Shown here piece after piece: positions 16,282 through 22,148 of a stretch of DNA of 52,220 nucleotides. The DNA lies in the NCBI GenBank assembly GCA_009694465.1, contig SHUW01000002.1:1-52220 (forward strand), in the 5' to 3' direction. Both the position numbers and the translations under genes were made by a program. This DNA is from Ilumatobacteraceae bacterium. GTDB lineage: Bacteria; Actinomycetota; Acidimicrobiia; Acidimicrobiales; Ilumatobacteraceae. The notes under the pieces were generated by a model. The model was given only the letters and a program-made list of their open reading frames with translations. It had not been told where the DNA came from and did no database searches. Each line of letters opens with the position of its first letter. Positions within the stretch are counted from its first letter, which is position 1.

Positions 16282-17202
16282 TCAGTGCGCGCTGGACGAA
16301 CTGTCTGCGATCGCTCCATTGAGATTTCCAGAGCGAAAGCCCTCAAGATCGAGAGTGACATAGCGATACCCGGCATCCTTGACAGCCTCAATAATCGCCA
16401 CCCGATTGGCTATCGCCTGATCGAGAACACTTTGCTCAACTTCAATACGCGCTGTCTCGCCATAATGACGCACCCGAACCTGGCGAAATCCCAAACCGTG
16501 CAGAGCCGATTCGGCACGATCAACTCTGCTCAAAATATCCACACTGACTGGAGTGCCATACGGAACTCGACTTGCCAAACAGGCGGCGGCCGGCTTATCC
16601 CATGTACGAAGCCCCATAGCCAGAGATGCACGCCGAACGTCTTTCTTTGTGAAACCAGCCTGAACCAAGGGGAAGACTGCCCCACGCTCAAGAGCCGCAC
16701 GCTGACCTGGTCGATGATCCGCCAAATCGTCAACATTGACCCCTAACACCACTGTCGCCCGCTCAAGTTCGGCAATCGGACCGACAACGTCCATGAGTTC
16801 GGCCTTGCAGTGATAACAGCGATCAACATCGTTAGCGCGATAGGCGGCGCGTTCCATTTCAGCGGTCTGGACCGGAGTCCAACGCAATCCCCACTCCTCA
16901 GCTAAACGTCGGCAATCAGTTTCCTCTTCACCAGCCAGGCTGGGAGATACGGCTGTCACAGCGTGGGCGTGTTCAGTACCTAAAAGCCGATGAGCCATAG
17001 CGGCCACAAAAGCAGAGTCCGCTCCGCCGCTAAACGCCACGACAACATGATTGAGATCAAGGATGATTTCTTCGAGACGCGCAATTTTGGCTACTAAGTC
17101 GTCATCTCCCGTGGCACCTGAGACAGGGTCAAAATCTTTCACACTCCTATCGTGCCACGCCAAGGAACCCAATTGCTTGCCCTTGACTCTCTCATTAGTC
17201 AC
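16282..17202 (-). CDS. larE: LarE-type ATP-dependent sacrificial sulfur transferase
   Basis: LarE adenylates the nickel-pincer nucleotide precursor and donates sulfur from its own cysteine to make the lactate racemase cofactor. The PP-loop SGGADS spans residues 58-63, RCYHCK holds a CxxC at 129-132, and ACLASR holds Cys208 in the position of the sacrificial cysteine. The length of 306 fits. The GTG at 17202 gives about 25 more N-terminal residues than usual; GTG 17142 is an alternative. No larA, larB or larC is visible, so the sulfur acceptor is unproven. It is followed 64 bp later by the LLM oxidoreductase. Confidence 0.85.
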   Translation of the reverse strand: MTNERVKGKQLGSLAWHDRSVKDFDPVSGATGDDDLVAKIARLEEIILDLNHVVVAFSGGADSAFVAAMAHRLLGTEHAHAVTAVSPSLAGEEETDCRRLAEEWGLRWTPVQTAEMERAAYRANDVDRCYHCKAELMDVVGPIAELERATVVLGVNVDDLADHRPGQRAALERGAVFPLVQAGFTKKDVRRASLAMGLRTWDKPAAACLASRVPYGTPVSVDILSRVDRAESALHGLGFRQVRVRHYGETARIEVEQSVLDQAIANRVAIIEAVKDAGYRYVTLDLEGFRSGNLNGAIADSSSSAH

Positions 17203-17227: not shown

Positions 17228-18121
17228 ATGTCATTAACCCCCGAGCGATTCCCCGTCAAGCATGCCACCGAGTTGAAGATTCGCGTGGCTCCTGATGTCA
17301 ACATGCGGGTTTTACGCCGCGGACCCACGACGACCCCGCACCCGATATTTTTGCTCATCCATGGTCTGGCCTCCAACGCTCGAATGTGGGATGGAGTTGG
17401 TGACGCCCTCGCTTCGCAGGGATTTGCCAGCGTGGCAGTTGACCTGCGCGGTCACGGTCACAGCGACAAGCCTGATACTGGGTACGACTTCGACACGATG
17501 TGCCACGACCTCTGCGCCCTACTTGACGAACTGCACATTGAGCGTGCGATTTTCGTGGGCCAGTCATGGGGCGGCAACATTGTTGTCCACGCCGCACATC
17601 AGCATCCAGATCGCGTTCTTGCCTGCGTACCCGTTGACGGTGGAGTCATCGAAATCGGTCAACTGTTCAGCAAGTGGGAAGATTGCGCCGAGCGAATGAA
17701 ACCCCCACGATTGGCCGGCATGCGCAGCGGACGATTGGAAAGTGCAATTCGTGCCACCAGCTCCGACTGGCCGGAATCAGGAATCATCGGTTCGCTCAGC
17801 AATTTTGCCTTTCATGATGATGGCACGATTAGCCCGTGGCTGACTTTTGAACGACACATGATGATTCTCAAAGAATTGTGGTTACATCAACCATCTCAGA
17901 TGTTTCCTGATATTTCCCGACCAGTTCTTTTCATGCCCGCTGATTCGGGTGATGTGAATTGGACATCAAATAAAGAGCAAGCAATAAACTTTGCTCTTGA
18001 GCAACTGCCGAATGGACGTGTCCATTGGTTCAGACCCGCGCATCACGACCTCCACGCACAATTCCCTGACCGTTGCGCAGAAGTTTTAGTCACTCACATT
18101 CAGAATGGTTTCTTCTCATGA
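17228..18121 (+). CDS. Alpha/beta hydrolase
   Basis: A 297-residue alpha/beta hydrolase. HGLASNARMW is the HG oxyanion motif, DLRGHGHSDKP follows, VGQSWGGN is the nucleophile elbow with Ser, and RPAHHDLHAQFPD supplies the C-terminal His. The track start (17051) lies in the divergent larE gene; ATG 17228 is the first sensible start. An AGGAGG lies upstream but 15 nt away, unusually far. The stop overlaps the next start as ATGA. Substrate unknown; ester or C-C bond hydrolysis are both possible. Confidence 0.83.
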   Translation: MSLTPERFPVKHATELKIRVAPDVNMRVLRRGPTTTPHPIFLLIHGLASNARMWDGVGDALASQGFASVAVDLRGHGHSDKPDTGYDFDTMCHDLCALLDELHIERAIFVGQSWGGNIVVHAAHQHPDRVLACVPVDGGVIEIGQLFSKWEDCAERMKPPRLAGMRSGRLESAIRATSSDWPESGIIGSLSNFAFHDDGTISPWLTFERHMMILKELWLHQPSQMFPDISRPVLFMPADSGDVNWTSNKEQAINFALEQLPNGRVHWFRPAHHDLHAQFPDRCAEVLVTHIQNGFFS

Positions 18122-19374
18122 CATCCCCGCCACGCCTTCTGACAATCATGGGTTCAGGTGAAACAGCACCGACGATGATGAAGCATCATCGAGAACTCAT
18201 TGCTCGGTTTCCAGGCACACCCAAGGCGGTCGTTCTTGACACGCCGTACGGTTTCCAAGAAAATGCGCCGGAACTTGCGGCCAAGGCAGTTGAGTATTTC
18301 CGTAAGAGCGTGGGCTACAACATTGAAATCGCTGGGCTGACACAGATCCATGGGGCCGACACGCTTGTGGTTGAGCAAGGTTTGAGTCGTATTCGTCAGG
18401 CAGATTATGTTTTCGCTGGACCAGGAAGTCCCACCTACGCCTTGCGTCAATGGACTGGGACCACAGTTCCCGAAATCATGCGCTCGAAAATGCGCACTGG
18501 TGGAGCGGTGACCTTTGCTTCTGCCGCAGCGCTCACTTTGGGACGCTACACAGTTCCCGTCTACGAGATTTACAAAGTCGGAAGTGAGCCAAGTTGGTTT
18601 GAGGGTCTCGACGTCCTCGGCGAGTTGGGACTCAATGTGGCTGTCATCCCACACTACGACAATGCCGAAGGTGGACACCATGACACGCGTTTTTGCTATT
18701 TAGGCGAGCGACGTTTATCCATGCTTGAAAATCAACTCCCTGATGATGCTCATGTCATCGGCGTTGACGAACATACTGGTGTCATCTTTGATCTTGATGC
18801 TGACACTGCAACCGTCATTGGGAATAGCACAATAACCATCCGTATCAAAGGTAAGTCTGTCGTTCACCAAACTGGCGCGGTCCTGCCAATTGATGCCTTG
18901 CGCGATCCAACGAGAGGCGCAGTCAACGTCGCCATCGACTTAGCCCCACGGGCGTTAGTAAACGAAACTATTGCACCAGAAAGTTTGTCCCTTGCCGCTG
19001 AAGTCAAGGACGCTGAGCAAGCCTTTGACATCGCGCTGGCATCTGGTGATGCCGCCGGTGCAGCACGGGCCACTCTAGAACTTGAGTTATCAATCCATAA
19101 TTGGTCAGCGGACACTTTGCAAAGCCGCGAAATGGATATTGCACACGCTGCCTTGCGCTCAATGATCGTCCGCTTAGGTGATGCTGCTATTGGAGGTCTC
19201 GTTGATCCTCGAGTCACCCTTGAACCTTTGATGAATGTTCTACTTGACTTACGTAGCGCAGTTCGTGCCGACAAGCGTTACGACTTATCGGATCTCATCC
19301 GAGATCGATTAGCAGCGAACGATATTGAAGTGCGTGACACGCCTGACGGTGTTGAATGGGTCATCAATCACTAG
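18118..19374 (+). CDS. Peptidase S51/cyanophycinase-like protein with CysRS-like C-terminal domain
   Basis: A 418-residue two-part protein. Residues about 1-270 resemble the class I glutamine-amidotransferase-like fold of cyanophycinase/peptidase E: TIMGSGETAPTM, FAGPGSPTYALRQW, then TFASAAALTLG where a nucleophilic Ser is expected, IPHYDNAEGGHHDTRF and GVDEHTGVIFD. The last 120 residues are helical and end DLSDLIRDRLAANDIEVRDTPDGVEW, very like the C-terminal end of cysteinyl-tRNA synthetase. No catalytic CysRS core (HIGH, KMSKS) is present. The start ATG 18118 overlaps the hydrolase stop as ATGA. The combined function is unknown. Confidence 0.72.
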   Translation: MTSPPRLLTIMGSGETAPTMMKHHRELIARFPGTPKAVVLDTPYGFQENAPELAAKAVEYFRKSVGYNIEIAGLTQIHGADTLVVEQGLSRIRQADYVFAGPGSPTYALRQWTGTTVPEIMRSKMRTGGAVTFASAAALTLGRYTVPVYEIYKVGSEPSWFEGLDVLGELGLNVAVIPHYDNAEGGHHDTRFCYLGERRLSMLENQLPDDAHVIGVDEHTGVIFDLDADTATVIGNSTITIRIKGKSVVHQTGAVLPIDALRDPTRGAVNVAIDLAPRALVNETIAPESLSLAAEVKDAEQAFDIALASGDAAGAARATLELELSIHNWSADTLQSREMDIAHAALRSMIVRLGDAAIGGLVDPRVTLEPLMNVLLDLRSAVRADKRYDLSDLIRDRLAANDIEVRDTPDGVEWVINH

Positions 19375-19375
19375 A

Positions 19376-20248
19376 TCATGCGGTTCGCAATGACGGACTG
19401 TGATGATCCATCCCTGCCACCCGCCCGCGGCGCCGAACACCGACAGCGCTGTAGACAACGATAAATACCAAAGTGCCAGCCAAAATGATCACTGCCCCGC
19501 TCGGAACATCGGCGTACCAACTCACGTACATTCCCACTCCCCCAAAGATTGCTCCGAGGACTGGCGAAAGCCACAACATGCGACCAAATGAATTGGTGAG
19601 CAGGCGAGCGGTGACCGCTGGCAAAACTAGCAACGCCGAAATCAGCAAAACTCCAATGACTCGAACCGTTACCAAAATAGTCGCCGACAAAAGAACCATC
19701 AATATTGCTTCCATACCTGGCACATTGACGCCACTCACTCCAGCGACTTCGGGATCAAAAGTGGCGAACAACAGCCTGCGGTACAAGGTCACAACAACAA
19801 CCACACTCAAGATTCCCACTCCGGCTACTGCCAATATGTCACCGGTGAAAACACCGAGCACATTGCCGAACAATACAGCGTCAATACTGCGTTTGGCTTG
19901 ACCAAACCTAGCTTGCAACGCTAGACCCATGGCGAATGACGCCGTCGTTATTACTCCAATTGCTGCATCTGCACCGATGATGCGCTTACGCGCTACTCGC
20001 CCAATCATTAAGCCTGATGCCAACCCCCACAAACCGGCACCGAGAAAATAACTCATGTTCAGGACTGCAGCTAAGGCGGCTCCACCAAATACTGCATGGC
20101 TCAATCCATGTCCGATGTAGCTCATTCCTCGTAAGACAACGAATACTCCAATCAGTCCACAGAGTGCTCCCGCAAGAGTCGCAATCAGCAAACCATTGCG
20201 AAAGAACTCGTACGTGAAAGGTTGCCAAAAGTTGACGGCGAAAATCAT
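19376..20248 (-). CDS. Zinc/manganese ABC transporter permease
   Basis: Membrane subunit of a high-affinity metal importer of the ZnuB/TroC class, 290 residues with about 8-9 hydrophobic helices. FFRNGLLIATLAGALCGLIGVFVVLRGMSYIGHGLSHAVFGG near the start is diagnostic, and VRVIGVLLISALLVLPAVTARLL is the conserved later block. The short tail RRRGRVAGMDHHSPSL is cytosolic. It is last in an SBP-ATPase-permease operon and overlaps the ATPase stop as ATGA. The metal cannot be told from the permease. Confidence 0.92.
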   Translation of the reverse strand: MIFAVNFWQPFTYEFFRNGLLIATLAGALCGLIGVFVVLRGMSYIGHGLSHAVFGGAALAAVLNMSYFLGAGLWGLASGLMIGRVARKRIIGADAAIGVITTASFAMGLALQARFGQAKRSIDAVLFGNVLGVFTGDILAVAGVGILSVVVVVTLYRRLLFATFDPEVAGVSGVNVPGMEAILMVLLSATILVTVRVIGVLLISALLVLPAVTARLLTNSFGRMLWLSPVLGAIFGGVGMYVSWYADVPSGAVIILAGTLVFIVVYSAVGVRRRGRVAGMDHHSPSLRTA

Positions 20249-21078
20249 GACGCGCCTTTACGACTCAGTCGAAGACGCAGTTCGCCGCCGCCCTGCTCAA
20301 GAACGACTGGCATTCCACCATGTTGTAGCACTTCCATAGGCGCGCCAAAAGTTCGCTCCAGAAAATACGGTTGAAGGACTTCACTGGGGGTTCCATCGGC
20401 AATCACAGTTCGGTTAAAGCACACCAGTCGTGGCAAGTGGGCTGCCAAGCCATTGAGGTCGTGAGTCGTCAAGACAATCGCAATCCCGTCGCCTTGAGGT
20501 GGACCTTCATTGAGATCTGCCAAGACATGAAGTATTTCGTGGCGGGTCGTCACATCAATTCCTGCAGTGGGTTCGTCCAAAATCAAAACATCGGGCTTTT
20601 GTATCAATGCACGAGCCAAGAAGACACGTTGTTGTTGACCACCCGATAATTCGCGAATATGTCGATGTATTAAGCCCCCAAGTCGAAGTCTTTCAAGAAC
20701 TTCTTCAATTGCCTGGCGTTCAGATGGTGATGAACCGGGCCACCAAGACTTTTGTGGACGACTCATTCCAACTACTTCACCGACCGTCACCGGGAAGTTC
20801 CAATCCACCGTCTCTAACTGGGGAACATAAGCGAAACGCAATCCTGCTGAACGGGTGACACTGCCATGGGAGGCTTTGATAGAACCCAACATTGCTTTTA
20901 AGAGCGTGGTTTTACCCGAACCAGATGGCCCGACAATTCCGACAAACTCACCAGCGTGAACTCGCAGGTCAACTCCCTCAATGACCGTGCCGTTGCCATA
21001 AGTGCACGACAGATGCTCGCAAGTAAGCAAAGGTGCTGGAAAAGTATTCCCAGAACTATTCATGGCGCTTGGCTTCAT
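20245..21078 (-). CDS. Zinc/manganese ABC transporter ATP-binding protein
   Basis: Cytosolic ATPase that drives the adjacent metal permease, 277 residues. Walker A is GPSGSGKTT, the Q-loop lies in YVPQLETVDWNFPVTV, the signature is LSGGQQQRVFLARAL, Walker B is VLILDEPTAGID, and the switch His is in TTHDLNG. WNFPVTV is typical of the ZnuC/MntB group. It overlaps the binding-protein gene by ATGA and the permease by ATGA. Confidence 0.95.
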   Translation of the reverse strand: MKPSAMNSSGNTFPAPLLTCEHLSCTYGNGTVIEGVDLRVHAGEFVGIVGPSGSGKTTLLKAMLGSIKASHGSVTRSAGLRFAYVPQLETVDWNFPVTVGEVVGMSRPQKSWWPGSSPSERQAIEEVLERLRLGGLIHRHIRELSGGQQQRVFLARALIQKPDVLILDEPTAGIDVTTRHEILHVLADLNEGPPQGDGIAIVLTTHDLNGLAAHLPRLVCFNRTVIADGTPSEVLQPYFLERTFGAPMEVLQHGGMPVVLEQGGGELRLRLSRKGAS

Positions 21079-22148
21079 TGTGGGTAATCAGCCGAATCTA
21101 GTCCAACATCAGTGACATCCAATGCCTCCAAAGCCGAAGCGTCCCCACCAAGAGCGTCAACCATTGTCAGGTAGTCAAAACGCATCAGCGCAAGCCATGA
21201 GTGCTCTGGATCGCCGGGCGCGCCGATCAAATCATCATCGCGCAGAACATCTACATAACGAACCCCTGCTTCATTGCCGATTTGTTCAAGCACAGTAGAT
21301 GGGAAAACCTCGCTCCCAAAGATTGCACTGACTCCGACCTCTTTAACTTGATCAATCAAATCAGCGACCTCTCGCGGCGTGGGCTCTTCAAATGATGATA
21401 ACTGAATGGCACCTATGACCGTCCAACCGTATGTCCTGGCGAAATAGGCATAGGCATCGTGATAGGTCAGTAACTGTCTCTGTGAACTTTCAATAGTCGC
21501 AGTCGCGGTGATGATGGCCTGATCAAGCGCGTCAACCTTGATCGCCAAGGCTTGATAGTTGGTTTCATAAATATCGCTGTGTGCTGGATCGGCAGCGACT
21601 AGCGAATCACGAATTAAAGCTGCATAGTCTTTTGCCATAGGGGGGTTGGTCCACACATGAGGATTTGGCTTGCCCCCATCCCGCGGAAATGAGAAATCAT
21701 AGATCCACTGATCGCTGGGCAGAATCGCCGTACCTAACTCACAAATAACGGATCCCTCCTGAGCGTTTGCCCGAGCAAGTGATCTCGTCGGCTCCTCGAG
21801 ACCCAATCCATTGACGAAAACTATGTCAGCATTCTCCAAAGTGGCAGCCACACTTGGTGGAGGCTCGTAGGTGTGGCTATTTGTGCCCTCAGGAACAATG
21901 CCGTGAATCACCGTGCCGCTTCCTGCAGCGATGTTGGCGACCAAACTTGTAATCGGCGCAACGGTGGCGACAATCACTAAAGGACGCCCAGTGACGGCAG
22001 TTCGAGTGGGACAAGAAGACGTCGGATAAGGCGCCGAGGAGCCTTCCACCGCTTGGTCATCGGAAGCACAAGCCACGATGTTGACGCATCCCACGACGAG
22101 AAAAAACACCAGAAGGGCAGCCTTTAAGCGACCAAATGGGGACGACAC
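21075..22148 (-). CDS. Metal ABC transporter substrate-binding lipoprotein (ZnuA/TroA family)
   Basis: Captures Zn2+ or Mn2+ outside the membrane, 357 residues. The N-terminal LLVFFLVVGCVNIVACASDD is a lipoprotein signal with a possible lipobox ending in either Cys. Three metal-ligand histidines are visible: in NSHTYEPPPS, NPHVWTNPP and LTYHDAYAYFARTYGW; SEVFPSTV holds the fourth, acidic site. There is no His-rich loop, which neither proves nor excludes zinc. The GTG start has TAACAT 6 nt upstream. It is the first gene of the operon. Confidence 0.92.
   Translation of the reverse strand: MSSPFGRLKAALLVFFLVVGCVNIVACASDDQAVEGSSAPYPTSSCPTRTAVTGRPLVIVATVAPITSLVANIAAGSGTVIHGIVPEGTNSHTYEPPPSVAATLENADIVFVNGLGLEEPTRSLARANAQEGSVICELGTAILPSDQWIYDFSFPRDGGKPNPHVWTNPPMAKDYAALIRDSLVAADPAHSDIYETNYQALAIKVDALDQAIITATATIESSQRQLLTYHDAYAYFARTYGWTVIGAIQLSSFEEPTPREVADLIDQVKEVGVSAIFGSEVFPSTVLEQIGNEAGVRYVDVLRDDDLIGAPGDPEHSWLALMRFDYLTMVDALGGDASALEALDVTDVGLDSADYPQ

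Follow-up and report, generated by a model that had tools for sequence, protein, structure and literature searches.

The gene at positions 18118..19374 of the window (the whole stretch analysed here, 52,220 nucleotides from an Ilumatobacteraceae bacterium) encodes a 418-aa protein in which a peptidase S51 domain of the PepE/cyanophycinase type is joined by a floppy linker to a tail of about 130 residues related to cysteinyl-tRNA synthetase (CysRS). The S51 half carries invariant residues of catalytic type, and the tail carries an invariant pocket for the anticodon base G34. Our best explanation, to which we assign a probability of roughly 0.45 from sequence and predicted structure, is that this fusion is a tRNA-Cys-directed serine hydrolase that would cleave an acyl or peptidyl group from tRNA-Cys.

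The open reading frame is intact and, like the alpha/beta hydrolase gene described below, lies on the forward strand. It starts with the ATG at 18118, which overlaps the stop codon of the preceding gene as ATGA. AlphaFold2, run with 69 homologs, gave a mean pLDDT of 85.5 and a layout consisting of an alpha/beta N-terminal half, a disordered linker at residues 267-289 (18916..18984; pLDDT <50), a helical bundle, and then a helix and a beta hairpin. When the whole model was compared to the PDB by Foldseek, S51 enzymes were the top matches and 1u0b, the structure of E. coli CysRS with tRNA-Cys, appeared further down with a probability of 1.00. An S51-like front joined to a CysRS-like tail had been proposed from the sequence, and Pfam, profile-profile comparison, and the predicted fold all agree with this. 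The synthetase core is absent, as had also been proposed; Pfam finds no core, and matches of the fusion to Pfam and NCBIfam comprise S51, cyanophycinase, and CysS only. A known editing domain (INS, AlaX, DTD, ThrRS-ED, or B3/4) was not found in the fusion by Pfam/NCBIfam. We found no family that has this architecture together with an assigned function, whether in annotations, in NCBIfam (no model of which spans the fusion protein), or in the literature, where our search found no paper on an S51 domain with a CysRS tail; this absence is not proof of novelty.

The S51-like domain covers residues ~1-262 (18118..18903) and is identified by both Pfam and Foldseek. Peptidase_S51 (PF03575) matches residues 9-223 with 26.3 bits against a cut-off of 23.9, and 28 of the 69 homologs match it at E<=0.01. 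The structural matches of this half are 6nqc (E=1.4e-12), PepE, and cyanophycinase. Enzymes of family S51 use a Ser-His-Glu/Asp triad (PMC11078827). The predicted nucleophile is Ser135 (18520..18522), the serine elbow of the original prediction, which lies in the motif FASAAAL and aligns with the SAGAM segment in the nucleophile region of 6nqc. The predicted catalytic histidine, His179 in IPHYDN (18652..18654), aligns with IPHF, and the predicted triad acid lies at Asp217-Glu218 in GVDEHT (18766..18771), aligned with GIDE. Ser135, His179, Asp217, and Glu218 are invariant in all 69 homologs and in 17/17 deep homologs. We infer that Glu218 rather than Asp217 is the triad acid, and the invariant triad points to hydrolase activity. 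Arg191 and Arg199 in the same half are nearly invariant; in cyanophycinase, arginines of this region presumably bind the substrate.

The second half of the protein ends in a CysS_C domain at residues 363-418 (19204..19371). The corresponding Pfam family (PF23493, CysRS anticodon binding) scores 21.0 bits for the whole protein and 23.8 bits for the tail alone, with a cut-off of 23, and 62 of 69 homologs match it. When each half was compared with CysRS by profile-profile alignment (hhalign), similarity was confined to the tail, with P=7e-12 for the last 56 residues and none for the S51 half. A search of the tail profile against all PDB sequences matched CysRS alone (8qhp, E=1e-10), with nearly the whole tail aligned. 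These two results rule out a chance match of the tail. Modelled alone, the tail also has 1u0b as its top Foldseek match, with a probability of 1.00 and an E of only 0.01; this E value and the large overall rmsd indicate that the relative placement of the two tail parts differs or is uncertain. The first of these parts is the helical bundle at residues ~292-362 (18991..19203), which resembles the DALR-like bundle of CysRS in its AlphaFold2 helices, in the Foldseek match to 1u0b, and in the alignment to 8qhp, whereas its own sequence profile is not significant and Pfam finds no DALR match for it. The original prediction had described the C-terminal 120 residues as CysRS-like. That is certain for residues ~363-418, and the bundle appears CysRS-like by fold, which is not provable from its sequence alone. 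Some lineages, among them two Acidimicrobiales families (L188, L190, and L195), have a shortened bundle but retain the CysS_C end, which therefore seems to be the essential part. All intact relatives inspected contain the tail, the apparent exceptions lying at contig ends; for one genome (G300, L196), a tail match was listed in one search and not recovered in another.

In the 1u0b complex, Arg427, Asp436, and Trp432 of CysRS contact G34 of the bound tRNA-Cys, and Arg423 reaches this base via water (PMC12684709). An ungapped alignment places Arg379, Arg383, Tyr388, and Asp392 of the fusion (19252..19293) at E. coli CysRS Arg423, Arg427, Trp432, and Asp436, respectively. Among the 69 homologs, Arg379 and Asp392 are kept in 69/69, position 388 is aromatic in 69/69, and Arg383 is kept in 68/69, with one R383K. 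The four positions, together with Arg395 and Asp407, are also kept in 17 of 17 distant homologs at 38-52% identity, which include Streptomyces and Nonomuraea. Within the tail, the pocket ranks with the best-conserved regions. The four contact positions fall within 8 invariant columns of 50, for which P is ~3e-4 if conservation fell at random. The pocket has been kept in the fusion although CysRS of the same family has changed at Arg423, Asp451, and Trp458; in 13/13 Ilumatobacteraceae sequences (L153, L156, L158-L161, L163, L164, L166-L169, and L140), three C-terminal residues that are otherwise conserved have been lost, with E. coli R423 replaced by L, D451 by T, and W458 by V or L. Part of the pocket conservation could reflect folding. 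Overall, the invariant contact residues make it quite probable that the tail binds tRNA. The earlier suggestion of a tRNA-Cys- or cysteine-related hydrolase is supported on its tRNA-Cys side by the invariant pocket, and its hydrolase side is suggested by conserved catalytic residues only.

In the GTDB species collection, 239 relatives were confirmed by tblastn, and the best 80 of them were kept. A match is present in 61 of 100 relatives, 4 of these being CysRS tails only. The carriers are Acidimicrobiales, other Actinomycetota (Phytohabitans, Streptomycetaceae, and Nonomuraea), and three Rokubacteria MAGs; two plasmid copies from Streptomycetaceae in RefSeq/GenBank are annotated as "hypothetical protein". 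In the family of the window, the fusion occurs in 37/42 genomes of <=2.8 Mb versus 4/19 larger ones, a difference confounded by shared ancestry. On a contig filed as Acidobacteriaceae (L073), the fusion adjoins an integrase-like gene that is also found on an actinomycete contig (L074), and L073 is probably misbinned or mobile. Relatives with the fusion also carry an ordinary full-length CysRS and a shorter, core-bearing MshC-like protein. The fusion is therefore not a broken or split synthetase; it is a separate paralogue. A replacement for an anticodon domain lost from the resident CysRS is likewise ruled out, because the CysRS of the relatives keeps its own tail and its changes at 423, 451, and 458 are also seen in a genome without the fusion (G035). 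The window's genome is 69% complete; no canonical CysRS with CysS_C was found in it, and its one strong synthetase-core match (G000:C85:3594-4472), in a 412-aa frame, is probably MshC.

Directly upstream of the fusion gene is an alpha/beta hydrolase gene (17228..18121; Pfam Abhydrolase), and the two are likely co-transcribed. A homolog of this gene is directly upstream in 60 of the 74 loci with >600 bp of upstream sequence, and in most of them it overlaps or abuts the fusion gene. The pairing holds in Rokubacteria and Phytohabitans, whose surroundings otherwise differ. The partner is missing in the other 14 loci, which counts against our best explanation. It is absent from a group of MAGs, mostly of Ilumatobacteraceae and Acidimicrobiaceae, in which the genes are arranged differently. 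Profile matches of the alpha/beta hydrolase are to general esterases and lactonases and give no substrate. In the window, the gene is divergent from one for a LarE-type ATP-dependent sulfur transferase (16282-17202; TIGR00268, 297 bits), with ~25 bp between the two starts. A complete Zn/Mn-type ABC transporter (permease, ATPase, and binding protein; 19376-22148) is convergent with the fusion gene. A functional link to LarE or to the transporter was rejected, as this synteny is local and in distant loci only the alpha/beta hydrolase remains. A role as a defence or phage gene was also rejected, since there was no PADLOC, PHROG, or phage match.

According to the proposed mechanism, the CysRS-derived tail would grip the anticodon of tRNA-Cys, and Arg379, Arg383, Asp392, and the stacking aromatic residue at 388 would hold G34. 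On its flexible tether, the S51 domain would then hydrolyse an ester or amide borne by the tRNA by means of Ser135-His179-Glu218, the simplest target being an aminoacyl or peptidyl group at the 3' end of the tRNA. The fusion would thus act in trans as a deacylase-like quality-control enzyme. Both cleavage at the 3' end and the nature of the substrate are guesses. To our knowledge, S51 enzymes are dipeptidases, cyanophycinases, and isoaspartyl-nucleotide hydrolases, and not tRNA deacylases, which counts against this proposal. The presence of the CysS_C module in Bacillus YqeB, which we take to have no known tRNA role, weighs in the same direction; a bPH_10 search of 120 actinobacterial genomes for a YqeB-type comparison found no copy.

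Other explanations of the same architecture place the substrate or the tail differently. The S51 domain may act on a small molecule or a peptide-nucleotide, as a detoxifier like MccG or as a dipeptidase; the tail would then sense tRNA or a nucleotide, or localise the protein, and would not present the substrate. This is consistent with the nearly invariant Arg191 and Arg199 and with the known chemistry of S51 enzymes, which cleave Asp-X dipeptides and, in the case of MccG, an isoaspartyl-nucleotide that poisons AspRS (PMC9239234). However, the neighbourhoods are mixed and contain no recurring biosynthetic cluster beside the fusion gene, and no S51 detoxifier with an aminoacyl-tRNA synthetase tail is known. 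We regard this explanation as unlikely.

Alternatively, the tail, though derived from CysRS, may no longer bind tRNA and may have a structural role or dock to other proteins. Reuse of synthetase appendages as scaffolds is common, and the tail scores weakly in the single-sequence Pfam search, but a role of this kind is hard to reconcile with a G34 pocket so strongly conserved within the tail, whose four contacts would rarely fall in invariant columns by chance; we consider it distinctly improbable. More doubtful still is a tRNA-dependent transferase, in which cysteine from Cys-tRNA-Cys would be moved to Ser135 and on to an acceptor, and the alpha/beta hydrolase would act on the product. Cyclodipeptide synthases do form an aminoacyl-enzyme on a serine from aminoacyl-tRNA, and the close association with another hydrolase gene would fit such a route. 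S51 enzymes are hydrolases, though, and the loci revealed no further biosynthetic gene that recurs.

A tRNA-Cys-directed hydrolase, if confirmed, could represent a new class in which a peptidase-fold serine hydrolase selects tRNA-Cys through the anticodon and clears it of an incorrect or modified acyl group, for instance a cysteine that is oxidised, persulfidated, or blocked, or else a peptide. We hold this extension to be somewhat unlikely. If true, it would be the first dedicated tRNA-Cys clearing enzyme known to us from a review of the field (PMC11295145), and hydrolysis guided by the anticodon would add a new means of policing or using charged tRNA. A conserved and unnamed protein family in Actinomycetota, including many small-genome freshwater bacteria, gains a sharp and testable prediction, namely that the fusion uses G34 to bind tRNA-Cys and hydrolyses something that this tRNA carries.

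The fusion shares features with several known systems. In common with PepE, cyanophycinase, and 6nqc (from an acI-B1 actinobacterium), it has the fold and the Ser-His-Glu positions, whereas its S51 half is ~13-19% identical to them and has its own subfamily motifs (MGSGETAPTM and HHDTRFCYLGERR) in addition to the synthetase tail. The last ~55 residues of the tail are homologous to the anticodon-binding end of CysRS (CysS) and retain the equivalents of Asp451, Gly455, and Trp458 and the G34-contact residues, and the preceding helical bundle is similar in predicted fold; unlike CysRS, the fusion has no HIGH/KMSKS catalytic core and carries a serine hydrolase in its place. MccG, an S51 peptidase of microcin C resistance (PMC9239234), resembles the fusion in its S51 triad and in a chemistry that touches aminoacyl-nucleotides, but by description it uses Ser-His-Asp and no anticodon-binding tail has been described. 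Stand-alone aminoacyl-tRNA deacylases such as YbaK, AlaX, ProXp, DTD, and CtdA (PMC11295145, PMC10018355) share the proposed principle of hydrolysing acylated tRNA in trans. Most of these are homologous to the editing domains of synthetases, whereas the fusion is an S51 protein that would choose its tRNA by the anticodon. The fusion of SepRS with a ThrRS-type tRNA-editing domain (PMC8762117) similarly joins a hydrolytic domain to a protein that recognises tRNA-Cys, although it retains the synthetase that the S51 fusion lacks. The stand-alone deacylases and the SepRS fusion show that comparable parts occur in nature, which we count in favour of a tRNA-Cys-directed hydrolase.
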